Virus record (IMG/VR): IMGVR_UViG_3300027749_000300
Coordinates: 1-34,554 of that record
Strand: one strand, 5' to 3'
DNA length: 34,554 nt
Source: a virus
In this document: one piece after another, positions 4,261-34,469 of the stretch
How the letters are laid out: each line of letters opens with the position of its first letter
Numbering within the stretch: position 1 is the stretch's first letter
Program-made: the position numbers and the translations under genes
Notes under the pieces: generated by a model
Database searches by the model: none
Told to the model about the DNA's origin: nothing
The model's input: the letters and a program-made list of their open reading frames with translations, nothing else

Positions 4261-5251
4261 ATCCATCCTTTAACCAAACATCCATTTCAATAAACCATTG
4301 CCCATTTGGTGTTTGACTATCTAACGATATTACCATGTTTTGAATAGTCGCATAAAAATCACCGCCATTAGGTACTAATTTAGATTGTATTCTAATTAAC
4401 CCATGTGGCTTATAAACAGGAGAATAAAGCACCTTTATAGTCCATAATATTTGTGATTTACGTAATGGTGAACCAATTAACCCTGTTTCTGATGTTACTA
4501 ATGGAATTTCCTTATGAACTGCAAAATACGCGCAATCACCCTTGTAGGTTAATAATACCTCATTGTTTGAAGCATCAAGTGTCACATCCATGTTGGCTGA
4601 TGTTTTTAGTTTCCATAGCATAGCTATTGGAGATCCTGAAAACACTGCGTCTGTTACTGTTGGAATAGGTATTGGATTACCTTTATTGTCAATAGTAGCT
4701 AATCCATTAATTACAGTAGGCTTATCGTCCATTAAATTGCAAATTGATTGAGCAATATCAGTTACTTTAATTGCTTTACCAAATGATATGCCTGTTACAT
4801 TTTTAAGATTATCAAGCACACCATAAGATGCTGTGATAATAAAAGGCACGTTCGGCATACTATTATAATCAGCATATGCATCTTGAAATGTGCCTATGCA
4901 AACTAGGTTGTCATTGGCATATAATTCAATTTTAGCATTGGTGTATTTATTAAGATTCCATTGGTAAACAGTTAACTTGTCCATTACTGATTTATCTAAA
5001 CCATAAATCATCACTTTAGTGACTGGCAATGATGCTGATCCAGCTAATAAAACATGCGCAGTTACCCTTGCATTTTGTATAGTAATTACATTAGAATCAT
5101 TGAAAAATACATTAGGTGAGTTATTAATATTGTCTGGTAATGTAATAATTACTTTAATATCTCTATTTTTAAAAGACCTATCAACAGCAACCACCAAGTC
5201 TTTCTTAGTAGCGGTACCATCAGTATTTATATCAGGGACGTTACTAGGCAT
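4250..5251 (-). CDS. Baseplate hub protein
   Basis: A 333-residue protein between the plug-like and spike genes, where contractile phages encode the hub (gp27/gpD-like). Visible features are a beta-rich N-terminal half (DIKVIITLPDN, VTKVMIYGLDKSVMDKLTVYQW), a middle segment with FGKAIKVTDIAQSICNLM, and repeated beta pairs. The tail end, QNMVISLDSQTPNGQWFIEMDVW, resembles the last hub domain that holds the spike. The start overlaps the upstream 98-residue gene by 8 bp and the stop overlaps the spike gene by 11 bp, suggesting coupled translation of hub and spike. Assignment rests on gene order and length more than on any single motif. Confidence 0.65.
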   Translation of the reverse strand: MPSNVPDINTDGTATKKDLVVAVDRSFKNRDIKVIITLPDNINNSPNVFFNDSNVITIQNARVTAHVLLAGSASLPVTKVMIYGLDKSVMDKLTVYQWNLNKYTNAKIELYANDNLVCIGTFQDAYADYNSMPNVPFIITASYGVLDNLKNVTGISFGKAIKVTDIAQSICNLMDDKPTVINGLATIDNKGNPIPIPTVTDAVFSGSPIAMLWKLKTSANMDVTLDASNNEVLLTYKGDCAYFAVHKEIPLVTSETGLIGSPLRKSQILWTIKVLYSPVYKPHGLIRIQSKLVPNGGDFYATIQNMVISLDSQTPNGQWFIEMDVWLKDGYAQ

Positions 5252-5540: not shown

Positions 5541-6340
5541 AAGCCTATTCCCCCTAAACCATCAGCAACACTGGAAAAAGAATCGGCAACGCCTTTTATT
5601 TTATCTAATATTGATAGTGAAGGTTTATTAGCTTGTACTGAATTGTCTTCTGCACCTATATCTTGAGCTTGTGTTGAATTGGATGTTTTTGACGAAGAAT
5701 ACTGCATTGAAACTTGCATTATTTCTTGGAAAATACAATCTGCAATTAATAAACTAACGCCAGATGACGAGTCTCTAGTAATTGAATAATCAACTAACGT
5801 CATATTTGGATAATGAACTTCTGGAACATAAATATCAAAATAATTATTATGAAATGAACCGCCAGTTTTAATTTTTGTTCTTTTTTTTGTATAGCCTTTA
5901 CTAACCATATCCAGCCATACTAGAAGCAATCCTCGTTCTTCTTCTGTGCCACCTTTAGTAATGCGAATATTAACTTGCCTAGGAGCTTCTACTTTATTGT
6001 AAGTTGTAAAACTTCCTGTTTCTAATCGGTAGTTAGATAATTCAGAGCCTTTTTTCTGAGAAATGGATACTACGCTATCAATAAACACATTATTAGCTAA
6101 TAACTCACCACTTAACAGGGATTTAACACCTGCCAATGAAGTGGCTTGACCAGCAATACCGCTTATACTACTAGGCTTAACTTTACCTAATATAATCTCC
6201 TGAGTGCTTCCTTGATAATAAATGCCCCACTTAGTATCAACAGTTAAAAAATCAAACAAAGCACCTTGAGCTAAAGTTAATGCAGCCCGACCGATGCTAC
6301 CAATAGATGGCACAAGTAATTGTGGTATTCCAATCCCCAT
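5537..6340 (-). CDS. Dit-like baseplate/tail-hub protein
   Basis: 267 residues, directly after the tape measure (TAATG overlap at 6340). The central region has FTTYNKVEAPRQVNIRITKGG, a helix with LLLVWLDMV, then FDIYVPEVHYPNMTLVDYSI and a strand ending in ADCIFQEI. This resembles the N-terminal domain of Dit-like tail proteins, which form the ring joining tail tube to baseplate hub. The last 50 residues are low-complexity and helical (ending GGIGL) and may be flexible. The first 40 residues are hydrophobic (SIGRAALTLAQGALFDFL), as in several relatives. Function inferred from fold pattern and position. Confidence 0.65.
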   Translation of the reverse strand: MGIGIPQLLVPSIGSIGRAALTLAQGALFDFLTVDTKWGIYYQGSTQEIILGKVKPSSISGIAGQATSLAGVKSLLSGELLANNVFIDSVVSISQKKGSELSNYRLETGSFTTYNKVEAPRQVNIRITKGGTEEERGLLLVWLDMVSKGYTKKRTKIKTGGSFHNNYFDIYVPEVHYPNMTLVDYSITRDSSSGVSLLIADCIFQEIMQVSMQYSSSKTSNSTQAQDIGAEDNSVQANKPSLSILDKIKGVADSFSSVADGLGGIGL

Positions 6341-7788
6341 TATTGCATCCCCGTATTATTGCTGCCCATATCAATAAATGTACGATTTATTTCGTTTATA
6401 ATTTTATTTGTAGAATCTTGGTCGCCATTAATATTAATAACCATTCCACTTAAAATATTTGTAACTTTATTTGTGTTTTTGTCATATTTATACTCGTTAG
6501 GCGCTCTCATAGCTAGAGCGTTACCTAAATAATCTTGTGATTCTCCTAGTATCTTGCCACCTACAAATTTTCCATCTTTAAATTCAGTACTTTCACCCTT
6601 ACGATTATAGCCTAATAATGCTTGACCTTGCCCCCCAAACTTCTTAGCTAATTTTTCTAAATAATGGTCACTAACCTTTCTATTTGTATCAAGATCATTT
6701 ATATTAGGGTTTTTAATCCCCATTTCCTTAGCTTCCGCATCAAAAGTAGCGGGTAACATTTGCCTTGCCCCCATAGCACCTGCGGGACTTACTTTATTAG
6801 GGTCATTTGGATTAGATTCTAATTTTTCTACTATTGATCCTAATGACTTGGCTTTTGCTTTATTTTTTTCCGTTTGAAAATAATTGTCTGGATTTAAAAT
6901 ATCACCAACTGCACCTGCAATGCTAGTTTTTACGTCTTGTATAGTTCCTCTGGCAGTCTCTATTGTATTCTGAGCAGTTTTACCTGTTTTTTGTGCTTCC
7001 TTTGCGTTTGATTGTGCTATCTCCTGTAAAGACGTTCTTTTAGGTTTGGGTTGGCTCATTGCATAGAATTTATTAATAGCATCATCACCAAGCAATGGTG
7101 TCACAACTTCTCTTAGTTGTGATCCAGTTAATTGTTGTGGGTTTCTGTCAATATAGCTTTGAACATCGTCCATAAGCTCAAGGGCTGTTTTAGCCTCGCC
7201 TGTGGACTTTAAAAGGTCGGCCCCTATCATACCTATTGATTTAGATAAATCTTCTGCGCCTTCGCCATATAATTGAAATCTATCTAATTTTGATTGTAGA
7301 TCAAGAATGCCTCTGACTGCAGATTCCGCACTTCCACCAATCATTTCCATGCTAAGTGAATAAGCCTTCAGATCAATAGCTGAGTCTTGCATTGAAGAAG
7401 ATAATCTTTCAAAAGTTGCAGCGTCAATTAGTCCCTCTTTTGCAATATTCCATACTTTATTAGCTATGGCAACAGCAGCAAATCTTTTTGATATGACATC
7501 AACTAATGTGTTTGTTTGGGTTTTTTCGGCAGCCTTTGTTTGTTCATCTTCTTCTTTTCTTTCTTTCTTTACTTCGGTAGTTTCTTTTTTGCGAACAACC
7601 TTTCTTTTCTTAACAGCCTTATCTAATATTTTGTCTTTTTCAGCTTCGACTTTTTTGACAGTTGTAACATCAATCTTTTGTTCTTTAGTTATTTCTTTCA
7701 GTTCTTGCTTAATCTTCTTTATTTCAGCATGGAAGCCTGTAGCATCTAAACCTAAGATTACTTTTAATGAATCAAGTACGGTTGCCAT
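6340..7788 (-). CDS. Tape measure protein with lytic transglycosylase domain
   Basis: 482 residues, short for a tape measure. Residues 15-90 are a highly charged coiled coil (Lys/Glu heptads). The middle is helical. About residues 315-400 carry a soluble lytic transglycosylase-like domain: KLESN (the Glu-Ser that supplies the catalytic acid in this family), SPAGAMGARQMLPATF, and a final GGQGQALLGYNRKG. Such domains locally open peptidoglycan when the tape measure is ejected. It follows the frameshifted chaperone, the invariable order in tailed phages. If the usual ~0.15 nm per residue holds, the tail would be roughly 70 nm, an inference only. No long transmembrane stretch is evident. Confidence 0.85.
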   Translation of the reverse strand: MATVLDSLKVILGLDATGFHAEIKKIKQELKEITKEQKIDVTTVKKVEAEKDKILDKAVKKRKVVRKKETTEVKKERKEEDEQTKAAEKTQTNTLVDVISKRFAAVAIANKVWNIAKEGLIDAATFERLSSSMQDSAIDLKAYSLSMEMIGGSAESAVRGILDLQSKLDRFQLYGEGAEDLSKSIGMIGADLLKSTGEAKTALELMDDVQSYIDRNPQQLTGSQLREVVTPLLGDDAINKFYAMSQPKPKRTSLQEIAQSNAKEAQKTGKTAQNTIETARGTIQDVKTSIAGAVGDILNPDNYFQTEKNKAKAKSLGSIVEKLESNPNDPNKVSPAGAMGARQMLPATFDAEAKEMGIKNPNINDLDTNRKVSDHYLEKLAKKFGGQGQALLGYNRKGESTEFKDGKFVGGKILGESQDYLGNALAMRAPNEYKYDKNTNKVTNILSGMVININGDQDSTNKIINEINRTFIDMGSNNTGMQ

Positions 7789-8813: not shown

Positions 8814-10340
8814 TTATAATACTACGATAGAGTTTAAGGTAACTTGTTGAATCGCACCGCCATCCATATAATACAATTTCATTGGTGGACTAACGCGTGC
8901 GCCACGCTCTTGAGCGGTTGCATCAACAATATTTAGATAATAGCCTTGTGTTTGTAATTGGGTAGAAATATCCTTGCCCACGCTATAGCTAATCGCTGCT
9001 TTTTGGCTATTACTTAAAGACACGCCAGTTCTAATGATTCCACAATTTAATGCCTGTTCAATAGGATCAGCACACCACGCTCTAATTAGGTTGTAGCCTA
9101 AGTCATTGTATGGAGCCATATTCACTTGTAGTAAACCCTCAAATATTGAAAGAGCTAGTTGTGAATTAAGGAAAATCTGACCAATATAAGTATCAAACCA
9201 TGCGAAACGACTGCCGCCCATAGCTCCATCAGCAATGATGTTGTAATTATTGCCAACACCTGGAGCAGAATAGCTACCAAAATAAGTAGAATTATTACTT
9301 AATACAGCATTGGCATCAGCTATATTAGTTACTTCTCCCACATAACTAGCTAAACCAGATTGCTGTCTAAATTTAAGAGTAGCCCTGCCATTGAGTGCGC
9401 TCCAATCAACTGCCGCTGCATAACCAGCTATGGCTGCTGCTAAATACACGCCTCCTGTTGGCGCATAACAAACTAATGTCCCATCAAATGTATCCGCTGC
9501 GATAATAGCACCAATAGTTGTGGCGTTATTTGCAGTTTTGTTTCCTATGTCAGAATCCCACACTATATAGGCATAGCGATCATTTTGGGCTTGAGTCCAT
9601 TGTGCAAAAAGAATTGTATCAGTGTTGACAGTTTCCCAAATTGTCATGAAAGTAGCCCAATTATTTGACAAATTAAGCAAATCATTCATTGCATCAGCGG
9701 GTGTATCAATACTGTCACCTTGACTTAATATACCAGCAGCGACACCTAATGGTGACGATAATGTGCCAGATGCATAAGCTATTGTTACGCCATCCCCAGT
9801 TGCATACGATGTGATAACAAATTGGCTTCTAATTGAATCCCAAGTAATTGTTGGAGCTGATCCACCGGTAAAGCCTAATCCTGTTTTAATAAGATTTATA
9901 ATGGATGTCGATTCTGCGCCACCAATGCTTGTTCCAGAAGCTAAATTTAAAGAGGGATTACTATAAGTTACAGCATTGATTACAATACTCAATGAACCAT
10001 TTAATGCTGTAAAATACGTTAATGGTTGACCAGCTAAGTTAATACCACGCAACCACGCAGGTTGTGATGTAGCTGCATAACCCGCTATAAATAATGTACT
10101 TGGAAATTTACTTGCATTATCAAATCCAGCAAAATAACATACAGCAGCCAAATACTCCGCTGATGTTGTGCCAAAGTACGCTCCTACATCAGTTGCATTT
10201 GAATAACTTAATATAGCTTCATTTGGTGCTAATGTATTTTGAGTTAAAAAAACAGTGTTTAATGCTAAAGGATTACCGCCTGTACCTACAACACCAGGTA
10301 TTACGGTTACTTCTTTAGAAATTGGTATAGATGATGCCAT
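8814..10340 (-). CDS. Tail sheath protein (DUF3383 family)
   Basis: About 508 residues. It shows the DUF3383 sheath pattern: IPISKEVTVIPGVVGTGGNPLALNTVFLTQN at the N-terminus, YFAGFDNASKFPSTLFIAGY, a long central domain with GDGVTIAYASGTLSSPLGVAAG, and the C-terminal FRQQSGLASYVGEVTNIADANAVLSNN, FAWFDTYIGQIFLNSQLALSIFEGLLQV and ERGARVSPPMKLYYMDGGAIQQVTLNSIVVL. The sheath contracts to push the tube into the host. An ATG at 10358 also opens the frame, but the ATG at 10340 lies 8 nt after GGGAG and is the better start. The ribosome site sits in a small hairpin loop (separate entry). Confidence 0.85.
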   Translation of the reverse strand: MASSIPISKEVTVIPGVVGTGGNPLALNTVFLTQNTLAPNEAILSYSNATDVGAYFGTTSAEYLAAVCYFAGFDNASKFPSTLFIAGYAATSQPAWLRGINLAGQPLTYFTALNGSLSIVINAVTYSNPSLNLASGTSIGGAESTSIINLIKTGLGFTGGSAPTITWDSIRSQFVITSYATGDGVTIAYASGTLSSPLGVAAGILSQGDSIDTPADAMNDLLNLSNNWATFMTIWETVNTDTILFAQWTQAQNDRYAYIVWDSDIGNKTANNATTIGAIIAADTFDGTLVCYAPTGGVYLAAAIAGYAAAVDWSALNGRATLKFRQQSGLASYVGEVTNIADANAVLSNNSTYFGSYSAPGVGNNYNIIADGAMGGSRFAWFDTYIGQIFLNSQLALSIFEGLLQVNMAPYNDLGYNLIRAWCADPIEQALNCGIIRTGVSLSNSQKAAISYSVGKDISTQLQTQGYYLNIVDATAQERGARVSPPMKLYYMDGGAIQQVTLNSIVVL

Positions 10341-31953: not shown

Positions 31954-32219
31954 TGTTAGAGAAAACAATCGAAGCGGCATTAGGAAAAAAGGTTAAAACT
32001 TTAGGTGGTAAATATGAAAAGTTTACGGCCCCAAGTAGACGCTCAGTGCCTGATCGCATAATAACTTTAGCTGAAGGTCGTATTATCTTTGTTGAATGTA
32101 AAGCTCCAGGCAAAGTTGCTACTGATGCACAAGCGAGAGACCATGACCTTAGACGAGCATTAGGCTGTGATGTAAGAGTAATATCCACAATGGAGCAGAT
32201 TGATGCCTTCCCGAATTGA
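31953..32219 (+). CDS. VRR-NUC domain nuclease
   Basis: 88 residues, a stand-alone VRR-NUC. SRRSVPDRIITLAEGRIIFVECKAPG gives the core: Pro-Asp (33-34), Glu48-x-Lys50; QARDHDLRRALGCDVRVIS continues the fold with Gln60 and the closing strand. These small nucleases belong to the PD-(D/E)XK superfamily and cut branched DNA; phage versions often act on Holliday-type structures. Coupled at both ends: its ATG overlaps the polymerase stop and it shares 17 bp with the SNF2-like gene. Confidence 0.9.
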   Translation: MLEKTIEAALGKKVKTLGGKYEKFTAPSRRSVPDRIITLAEGRIIFVECKAPGKVATDAQARDHDLRRALGCDVRVISTMEQIDAFPN

Positions 32220-33531
32220 TTTACACGATTATCAAAATCGAGCTGTAGAATTTATAAAAGATAATAAAAGGTCATTTTTAATGTTAGAAATGGGACTTGG
32301 AAAAACAGTATCTACATTAACTGCCATTGGCGACTTGCTCCAAACAAAATCTATTAAAAAAGTATTAGTCATCGCACCGTTAAGGGTAGCTAATTCAGTA
32401 TGGTTGCAAGAATCACGCAAATGGACGCATACCAAACACCTTTTAGTCCATAGGGTATTAGGTAGCCAAAGTGATCGCCTTAAGGTTCTTCATCATGATA
32501 GTGAAGTATATGTAATTAACCGAGAAAACGTGCAATGGTTAGTTAATCATTATGGTAAAAAATGGCCTTTTGATATGGTTGTGGTTGATGAAAGCAGCTC
32601 TTTTAAGAACGCTGGTAGTCAACGATTTAAAGCTATAAAGAAAGTATTGCCTTTTATTGAATATATTGTGCTGCTAACCGGAACACCGTCACCAAATGGC
32701 CTATTAGATTTGTGGTCACAATGCTATTTAGTTGATTATGGCCATTCATTGGGTCGCACAATGACAGCGTATAAACAGCGTTTTTTTGAGCAAGGTTACA
32801 TGGGGTATTCATTTACACCACGAAAAGGCTCACAGGTTCAAATTGAAAAGTTAATGAAACCTTATACCCTTTCTATGCAAACTGCGGATTACCTAGACCT
32901 TCCTGATCGTATAGATTTAATCGAAGAAATAAATTTATCACCTAAAGTATTAGCTGAATACAAATTATTTGAACGTGATTTGTTTATAGAGTTTGAAGGT
33001 CATCAAGTAGAAGCAATAAATGCTGCTGTACTTGCTAACAAACTACTCCAATATTCCAATGGGGCAATGTATGTTGATGAATATAAGAACTGGGCAGAAC
33101 TTCACACATCTAAACTTGATGCTCTAGCTGAGTTGATTGAGCAAAACGATGAAAACATTCTTGTAGCATACAACTATAGAAGTGATCTTGAACGCCTTCA
33201 AGCACGTTTCCCCGATGCTGTAGTTATGGATAAAAATGATGACACTATAACCTTATGGAATAAAGGCGATATTAAACTTCTTTTAGCACATCCTCAAAGC
33301 GCAGGGCATGGCCTTAACCTTCAACATGGTGGGCAACTTGTTATTTGGTTTTCACTTTGCTGGTCACTGGAATATTACCAACAATTTAATGCCAGATTAC
33401 ATAGGCAAGGTCAAACCAAACCAGTACGCATAGTCCATCTGGTTGTAAAAAACACTATAGACGAACGAGTCATGAAGGTTATTAATGAAAAAGACGCTAC
33501 CCAAAATAGATTAATTACAGCTCTTAGATAA
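32203..33531 (+). CDS. SNF2-family (SF2) helicase
   Basis: About 442 residues. Motif I MGLGKT, Ia APLRVANSVW, II VVVDESSSFKN (DESS instead of DEAH), III LLTGTPSPN, then C-terminal motifs IV-VI: NILVAYNYRSDLERL, AHPQSAGHGLNLQHGG and QFNARLHRQGQTKPVRIVHL. All key motifs are present. SNF2-like proteins of phages, in the same cassette as DUF2800, SSB, polymerase and VRR-NUC, probably remodel replication or recombination intermediates. A TTG one codon upstream opens the frame; the ATG at 32203 is 7 nt after GGAG and is preferred. Confidence 0.9.
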   Translation: MPSRIDLHDYQNRAVEFIKDNKRSFLMLEMGLGKTVSTLTAIGDLLQTKSIKKVLVIAPLRVANSVWLQESRKWTHTKHLLVHRVLGSQSDRLKVLHHDSEVYVINRENVQWLVNHYGKKWPFDMVVVDESSSFKNAGSQRFKAIKKVLPFIEYIVLLTGTPSPNGLLDLWSQCYLVDYGHSLGRTMTAYKQRFFEQGYMGYSFTPRKGSQVQIEKLMKPYTLSMQTADYLDLPDRIDLIEEINLSPKVLAEYKLFERDLFIEFEGHQVEAINAAVLANKLLQYSNGAMYVDEYKNWAELHTSKLDALAELIEQNDENILVAYNYRSDLERLQARFPDAVVMDKNDDTITLWNKGDIKLLLAHPQSAGHGLNLQHGGQLVIWFSLCWSLEYYQQFNARLHRQGQTKPVRIVHLVVKNTIDERVMKVINEKDATQNRLITALR

Positions 33532-33549
33532 TTAAATGTAAATTAGAGC

Positions 33550-33578
33550 TTGACACTTTATTTTTAAATCTTTACTAT
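33550..33578 (+). promoter_or_regulatory. Near-consensus promoter before the structured region
   Basis: TTGACA (33550-33555), exact 17-bp spacer, TACTAT (33573-33578). Start of transcription is expected near 33585. It is one of the best sigma-70 sites in the window and precedes about 440 bp without a convincing gene. Confidence 0.75.
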
Positions 33579-33584
33579 AGCCAC

Positions 33585-34018
33585 AACTTAAAAAGTTAAC
33601 GCATCCAGAGCGTAGAATCTGGGCAGGCCGGAACAGACACTGATAGACCTAGCAGAAAAAGGATTTTTAGTGATACATCCAGTTTCCTAGACAGAATTTT
33701 AGGGTGTATCAGTAAAAAGTGCGGCCGGTGCCACCTCGGACCGAAAAAAGGCGGGGGATGAAAAGTTATTCCAAATAACAGCCGCACTGTTCCACCCCCT
33801 CAATGGCTTAGTTTAGTTCTGCGAGGGTTTTAAAGATGGTTATTGAGCTGTAATCGTGGCTTCGATAATCCTAGGAGAAGTTCCCGCAGCAAAAGGAAGG
33901 CAGGTAGCTACTGCTGAACGCCGGAAACAGTAACCATCTTTAAAAGTACGTACCCAGCAGAGCAACCTGCCTTATCAAAGCACCTATTATTGCGCTGGCC
34001 AGTGTCAGCGCTCCTTAT
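33585..34018 (+). ncRNA. Candidate long structured non-coding RNA
   Basis: A non-coding stretch with many strong pairings. There is a 17-nt imperfect hairpin 33664-33680/33702-33718 and an 8-bp stem 33718-33725/33781-33788 enclosing GTTATT-CCA-AATAAC. An 18-bp stem 33828-33845/33928-33945 has one G-U. A 9-bp pairing 33897-33905/33965-33973 crosses the 18-bp stem (pseudoknot), and a GC-rich hairpin lies at 33992-34011. It is richer in G+C than neighbouring genes. No known RNA family recognised; it could also be a long leader of the genes at 34030. Confidence 0.5.
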
Positions 34019-34029
34019 TGGAGATAGAA

Positions 34030-34254
34030 ATGAAAGATTACGCAGACAAAGCAGATTTATTAAATGGCAGCCTTGATGACCTTGAGGATTATTGGCACCA
34101 AGAATCTCAGAACGCAAAAATTGGCAAGCTTGCGGCCTTGTTTATCATCGTTGTTTTAGGTTTAGCTTTAAGCTTTATCTACAGCAAAAGTTCACCCGCA
34201 GCGGTCAATACTGTTTCATGTTTTTCCTTAGTCGATCAGGCCGGTGAAGAATGA
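34030..34254 (+). CDS. 74-residue single-pass membrane protein
   Basis: ATG at 34030 with GGAG 6 nt upstream; that ribosome site is in a small CTCC/GGAG hairpin at 34011-34023 that may limit translation. The N-terminal 35 residues are hydrophilic and acidic (KDYADKADLLNGSLDDLEDYWHQ), followed by a membrane helix (LAALFIIVVLGLALSFIYS) and a short C-terminal part. It ends in an ATGA overlap with the next gene. No family recognised; possibly an envelope-located accessory protein. Confidence 0.65.
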   Translation: MKDYADKADLLNGSLDDLEDYWHQESQNAKIGKLAALFIIVVLGLALSFIYSKSSPAAVNTVSCFSLVDQAGEE

Positions 34255-34469
34255 GTACCAAAACCGCGACAGTCACTGTTCAGGGCGTTGATATAGCGAT
34301 TGAGTTCGATCATCAGCCCAAAGAAGCGGAAACACTGACTTACCCTGGTTGTCCTGAAAGTGTGGAAATAACAGAGGTACAAATAAAGGGATTTTATTTA
34401 GCAACTGAATGGCTCAGTAACTACTTTATTGAGTTGATAGAGGCAGAAGCTCTTAAGGAGTGCGGGTAA
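34251..34469 (+). CDS. 72-residue unknown protein
   Basis: The sequence begins with a beta hairpin-like stretch (TKTATVTVQGVDIAIEFDH) and continues with PGCPESVEITEVQIKGFYLATEWLSNYFIELIEAEALKECG, a strand followed by a helix. It is acidic and soluble. Coupled to its neighbours by ATGA and TAATG junctions. Codon choice is less A+T rich than the replication genes. Function unknown. Confidence 0.6.
   Translation: MSTKTATVTVQGVDIAIEFDHQPKEAETLTYPGCPESVEITEVQIKGFYLATEWLSNYFIELIEAEALKECG

Follow-up and report, generated by a model that had tools for sequence, protein, structure and literature searches.

A mosaic pseudoknot RNA kept in methanotroph phages that probably controls the reading of an operon

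What is encoded by the long gap between the helicase gene and the small operon of this virus? The stretch of DNA analysed here (the window, a virus record of 34,554 bases) carries terminase, portal, head, tail-sheath, primase, polymerase and helicase genes, and its positions 33585-34018 hold no recognisable gene, the overlapping ORFs being short, antisense and without Pfam match. An earlier note, made from the letters alone, had described this region as densely paired DNA with no good ORF behind a near-consensus promoter, and had offered an ornate RNA, a riboregulator or a long leader as its nature. A consensus scan found the promoter at 33550-33578. The G+C content of 33536-34035 was 44%, against 37.9% for the window overall, and the plus-strand RNA of 33585-34018 folded at -140.7 kcal/mol (z -3.77, none of 100 shuffles as good), with a z of -2.54 for the minus strand. 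The description was sound. The surroundings of the region are:

33550-33578, plus strand: sigma-70-like promoter, TTGACA-N17-TACTAT
34020-34023, plus strand: probable ribosome-binding site GGAG, judged from the sequence
34030-34254, plus strand: first operon gene, a small ORF of 74 aa with one hydrophobic stretch and no Pfam, PHROGs or PADLOC match; its product would be a small membrane protein
34251-34469, plus strand: second operon ORF, 72 aa, from the ORF list, with no family match

Relatives were sought from the upstream helicase gene, which gave 43 viral loci. In the closest of them, L025, the promoter is conserved at the position it has in the window, and it is followed by 125 nt of near-identical sequence, then by other sequence, and then by the core of the element with changed but paired letters. 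Patterns of the core and of a second module, both described below, brought in L064, L066, L067 (=G002), L068, L069, L107, L109, L111, L112 and L113; relatives lie in nine other phage contigs, and L112 and L113 are two Methylococcaceae MAG contigs. The first pattern scan, with AGTTCCCGCAGCAAAA, was discarded, as its 18 matches had no further similarity and were about the number expected by chance. In the methanotroph family to which the genome of L112 belongs, a covariance model of P1 and S1, followed by a pseudoknot pattern filtered for complementarity, detected the core pseudoknot in 8 of 237 genomes. Among 369 evenly drawn gammaproteobacteria only the genome of L112 carries the core, and the sole other pattern match does not pair. 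From these searches, the element is known here from methanotroph genomes and metagenomic phages, and the host of the window itself was presumably a methanotroph.

Blastn of the window and of the relatives' cores against phage and plasmid collections gave no real match, and the P1 pattern had none in the genome collection. Rfam 15 returned no family at gathering thresholds for the window, L109, L121, L119 and L115, and only chance-level matches at relaxed thresholds; a few searches of open-licence papers yielded no description of the element. Apparently, the RNA family has not been described before; its general kind, the phage leader or attenuator RNA, is known.

The helicase itself showed a separate peculiarity. 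In L060 (3786-6917), and also in L061, the homologue of the window helicase (32200-33531) has two in-frame intein-like inserts, the first with Pfam Intein_splicing/Hint matches. Each insert contains an ORF in another frame (4267-5007, with a DUF559 match, and 5698-6375, with no Pfam match), and these are perhaps nested homing endonucleases. The helicase of L057 (5718-6813) seems to have a single insertion, about 1 kb long, in a comparable position.

The first part of the region, up to its terminator, comprises the following features:

33595-33661, plus strand: 5' module with a hairpin CCAGA/TCTGG, exchangeable among relatives by identity comparison
33664-33718, plus strand: hairpin P1, whose stem covaries in 9 distinct sequences
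33719-33787, plus strand: P2, 33719-33725 with 33781-33787, 7 pairs of which 3 are changed on both sides, enclosing the pseudoknot
33726-33757, plus strand: H-type pseudoknot whose geometry is fixed across 12 distinct sequences, with S1 at 33726-33730/33739-33743, L1 at 33731-33732, S2 at 33733-33738/33752-33757 and an A-rich L3 at 33744-33751
33797-33831, plus strand: intrinsic terminator T2 (CCCTC-N21-GAGGG, then TTTT), from a terminator scan

The 5' module is near-identical in L025 (97.6%) and L064 (96%), as measured on blocks that include it; the other members have different sequence in its place. At its base P1 is invariant, TTAGTGAT facing ATCAGTAA with one G.G mismatch; above this come a variable 8-bp stem and a large loop. 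One group of members has a TTTCCTAGACAGAATT-like loop, a second group TTTTTGAAGGT or TTTTAGAAGAT. P1 precedes the pseudoknot in most members and is absent from the L117-L121 types. The pseudoknot keeps an S1 of 5 bp (the fifth often G.G), an L1 of 2 nt, an S2 of 6 bp, no L2 and an L3 of 8 nt. S2 was found as CGCGTA/TACGTG, CTCGTA/TACGAG, CTCGAA/TTCGAG, CACCAG/CTGGTG and CACCGG/CCGGTG; five of its six pairs are kept in the window type and in L064/L068, the pairing being weaker at the inner end. Among the places listed, each genome has one complementary pseudoknot.

Over the 33 pairs of P1, P2, S1 and S2, 94.9% of cells were paired and 17 pairs were changed on both sides, the helices being kept while the sequences drift among relatives. 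The covariation score was 0.544 for this core against 0.179 when shuffled, and 0.639 against 0.187 for the pseudoknot alone (12 distinct sequences), with 0 of 500 shuffles reaching the observed value in either case. These alignments, of related sequences, were assembled manually block by block, fixed letters standing in for the P1 loop and the P2 interior. The shuffle figures are not probabilities; the argument rests on the slid control, in which the core scored at most 0.146, and on the direct compensations. Because the shape is kept while the letters change in related methanotroph phages, we conclude that the region of about 430 bases is a real folded RNA element, apparently undescribed, which probably controls whether the operon is read.

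The earlier note had proposed a pseudoknot between GGGGG (33753-33757) and CCCCC (33795-33799). Both runs exist, but theirs is not the conserved pairing: it is impossible in L025, L066 and L069, the pairing of the G-run that is conserved is with 33733-33738 (ACCTCG/CGGGGG), within the H-type pseudoknot, and CCCCC belongs to the 5' side of the intrinsic terminator. Two other readings of the region were rejected. A coding gene is disfavoured by the pseudoknot, across which no frame is open to a similar length in all members, and by antisense ORFs that have no family match; for an insertion sequence or MITE, there was no transposase among the annotated window genes and no plasmid match.

Downstream of T2, a second module extends towards the ribosome-binding site:

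33828-33845 with 33928-33945, plus strand: helix A, paired with changed sequence in relatives
33897-33973, plus strand: 9-bp crossing pairing (33897-33905/33965-33973), with GCAGG in the helix-A loop confined to the window and the L109/L111/L112 group
33942-33982, plus strand: near-invariant 35-nt stretch AAAAGTACGTAC..GCAGAGCAACCTGCCTTATCAAAGCA, kept in the window, G002, L107, L109, L111, L112 and L113
33992-34011, plus strand: 3' hairpin of about 8 bp with a CAGT-like tetraloop, identified by covariation

Helix A corresponds to the 18-bp stem noticed at first reading, and it is paired with different sequence in G002, L107, L109/L111, L112 and L113, with one compensatory exchange between L109 and L112. 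The 3' hairpin covaries as GCTTCGAC/GTCGAAGC, GCGTCGAC/GTTGGCGC and TGCGCTGGA/TCCAGCGCA. The 9-bp helix said to cross the stem is present in the window but is not kept in G002, L107 and L113, and would be lineage-specific at most. The most conserved sequence of the module is the near-invariant AAAAGTACGTAC..GCAGAGCAACCTGCCTTA.CAAAGCA of 33942-33982. L025, L064, L066, L068 and L069 lack the second module, T2 being followed there by the ribosome-binding site. Covariation of core, pseudoknot and second module thus bears out a structured RNA behind the promoter, and the sequence comparison indicates that the element is a mosaic rather than one fixed 430-nt unit, with modules gained, lost and swapped among relatives.

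Of the earlier proposals, a long leader serving the small operon is the best fit, as the element is intergenic and reads in the same direction as the operon in every lineage whose context was read. In the window, L025, L107, L109, L111, L112, G002 and L121, a promoter-like sequence precedes it and the first ORF follows; in L066, L068, L069, L117 and L119 it is preceded by a gene and not by an early promoter. The pseudoknot of L117 sits behind the small ORF; the unit has accordingly changed its place within operons. Against the leader reading count L019, L020 and L060, which have 83-86% helicase identity and no element, only a similar promoter and a short leader before the ORF; L023 is likewise without it. 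The promoters before the leaders of L109 (about 9060-9110), L111, G002 and L121 have differing palindromes in or around the spacer, for instance TTCGCTATAGGCGAA and TCCACTAACAGTGGA, which look as if repressor sites had been exchanged.

The 74-aa ORF can be aligned with the leader-associated ORF of L109, L112, G002, L113 and L117, and in several members the small ORFs align with one another and share the ending ..LVDQ.GEE or a variant of it. RecT, YqaJ, SSB-like or RdgC genes lie downstream in G010, G011, G055, G059 and G125: a small hydrophobic ORF, RecT and YqaJ follow in G010, a small ORF and RecT (Pfam) in G055, RdgC in G059, and a protein of similar start and length in G125. The presence of RecT or SSB-like genes in or beside several operons would suit a translational operator bound by the operon's own single-strand-binding or annealing protein, as in the leader pseudoknot of T4 gene 32. 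We consider this very unlikely, as the window pseudoknot ends 273 nt before the start codon, with a terminator in between, and the downstream operons differ among members.

Terminators are a recurrent companion of the pseudoknot. T2 is weak in the window and stronger in relatives; in 14 of 18 members the distance from the pseudoknot start to the beginning of an intrinsic terminator is 53-81 nt, and 11 of the 18 have a further terminator 43-119 nt ahead of the pseudoknot, against 2.2% and 2.3% when random positions were scanned in a similar way. The scan found no T2 at the expected place in L115, L118, L120 and L121. In L118, a tRNA-Met (CAT) gene (1612-1687) stands just behind the pseudoknot, at the place occupied by a terminator in its close relative L117. 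In most of the minimum-energy folds, T2 and the P1/P2 domains coexist. Pseudoknot and T2 are able to form together there, so that no general switch between exclusive folds, of the terminator/antiterminator kind known from riboswitch-type attenuators, was seen; only the window, G002 and L107 type would allow an exclusion of G-run and C-run. A boxA-like GCTCTTTAA is present in the G002 and L113 leaders, and the motif was not testably commoner in leaders than elsewhere in the contigs (6 in 345 kb). This boxA core stands upstream of the pseudoknot in two related leaders (L076 1307 and L113 7375, minus strand).

The architecture of the leader points to transcription control within it. We propose a mosaic cis-acting leader RNA that gates the early phage operon at the leader terminators, a reading that we consider to have about an even chance of being right. 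Transcription would begin behind 33550-33578, and the transcript would form the 5' module, P1 and the P2-enclosed H-type pseudoknot before the polymerase reaches the terminator at 33797-33831. The pseudoknot domain, together with P1 where present, would set the share of polymerase passing T2, and this passage would set the output of the operon from 34030; the second module would then lead to the ribosome-binding site. Candidate signals are the polymerase, a Nus-type factor, a phage protein or a ligand. The proposal is based on the pairings, the covariation, the fixed pseudoknot geometry, the co-direction with the operon and the adjacency of terminators. That read-through is regulated, and that the pseudoknot is the regulator, are both steps that we infer. 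In the 72 kb downstream, sense terminators numbered 0.08 per kb and antisense ones 0.11 per kb; the lack of enrichment further down the operons agrees with gating in the leader. A model based on the pseudoknot alone meets its main difficulty in L107, L109, L111, L112 and L121, where a terminator precedes the pseudoknot, which could therefore not control expression there by itself. These leaders have a further structured 5' segment, which may act on that terminator.

The same terminators bear on two other readings. A trans-acting small RNA with its end at T2, released from the operon transcript by cleavage or termination so that the operon is reached by read-through only, would account for the compact fold with a terminator at its 3' end, and for the conservation of the P1 loop TTTCCTAGACAGAATT in one group of members, as expected of a contact site. 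We judge it rather unlikely, given the strict co-direction with operons, the absence of P1 in the L117-L121 types, and the fact that, where an upstream terminator and the pseudoknot both occur, the sequence between them shows no apparent promoter of its own. Alternatively, the element could bind the transcribing polymerase and let it pass terminators, as does put of phage HK022, which acts through the zinc-binding domain of the polymerase beta' subunit. The leader position of the element in many members, with terminators right behind it, agrees with this, as put lies downstream of early promoters and needs no dedicated protein for its action in cis (PMC9378689), and intrinsic terminators within an operon are taken to indicate antitermination, for which put, EAR and conAn2 are RNA-based systems (PMC8955417). 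Long-range action is, however, unneeded without a terminator excess further down the operons, several members have a terminator upstream of the pseudoknot, no blastn match was found in the phage collection, and put has two stem-loops in about 70 nt and no H-type pseudoknot (PMC9378689); we consider this reading unlikely. It is also improbable, in our view, that the element is a pseudoknot-based antitermination RNA acting directly on the polymerase, unrelated to put, EAR and conAn2, and spread as an exchangeable early-operon cassette of methanotroph phages.

The phages of methane-oxidising bacteria hereby gain an apparently undescribed and strongly covarying RNA element. Its conserved pseudoknot and neighbouring terminator make read-through with and without an intact S2 directly testable. 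Phage RNA elements that control termination in cis are few, and each is instructive about the polymerase.

Several known systems resemble the element in part. GOLLD, ROOL and OLE are also large structured non-coding RNAs, some of them in phages; the element is smaller and modular and has no Rfam match, which leaves the ornate RNA suggested at first reading without support. The preQ1-I type riboswitches have a small H-type pseudoknot with an A-rich loop upstream of a terminator, as found here. They differ in that our element has no Rfam match, its pseudoknot strand does not generally overlap the terminator, and it serves phage operons of differing genes.

The ToxI-type RNAs of type III toxin-antitoxin loci share the order of promoter, pseudoknotted RNA, Rho-independent terminator and gene (PMC5086642), and a Rho-independent terminator lies between RNA and gene in 14 of the 18 members. 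A toxin-antitoxin locus, with the pseudoknot RNA as antitoxin, is nevertheless extremely improbable: the pseudoknot is single, without tandem repeats, the ORF encodes a 74-aa hydrophobic protein without PADLOC or Pfam match, neither PADLOC nor Pfam detected a ToxN-like endoribonuclease among the ORFs behind the leader, the operons differ, and the small 74-aa-type ORF does not follow the RNA in G059, G125 and G085.

The conAn2 and EAR elements are likewise RNAs tied to intrinsic terminators at the start of operons (PMC8955417). According to their descriptions, which set them apart, they serve operons of Gram-positive bacteria or of their plasmids (conAn with a protein partner), whereas here terminators are confined to the leader; a processive antitermination operon would have terminators to be passed along its whole length, and no excess of them was seen in the 72 kb downstream. 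HK022 put, a cis-acting RNA of the early-operon leader (PMC9378689), differs in that here an H-type pseudoknot stands inside P2, usually with P1, in mosaic leaders with terminators also upstream, and antitermination is putative. Both are phage RNAs located in cis in an early-operon leader, upstream of terminators; of the members, the window, L107, L109, L111, L112, G002 and L121 have this position behind an early promoter and before terminators, and L066, L068, L069, L117 and L119, with a gene in front, do not.
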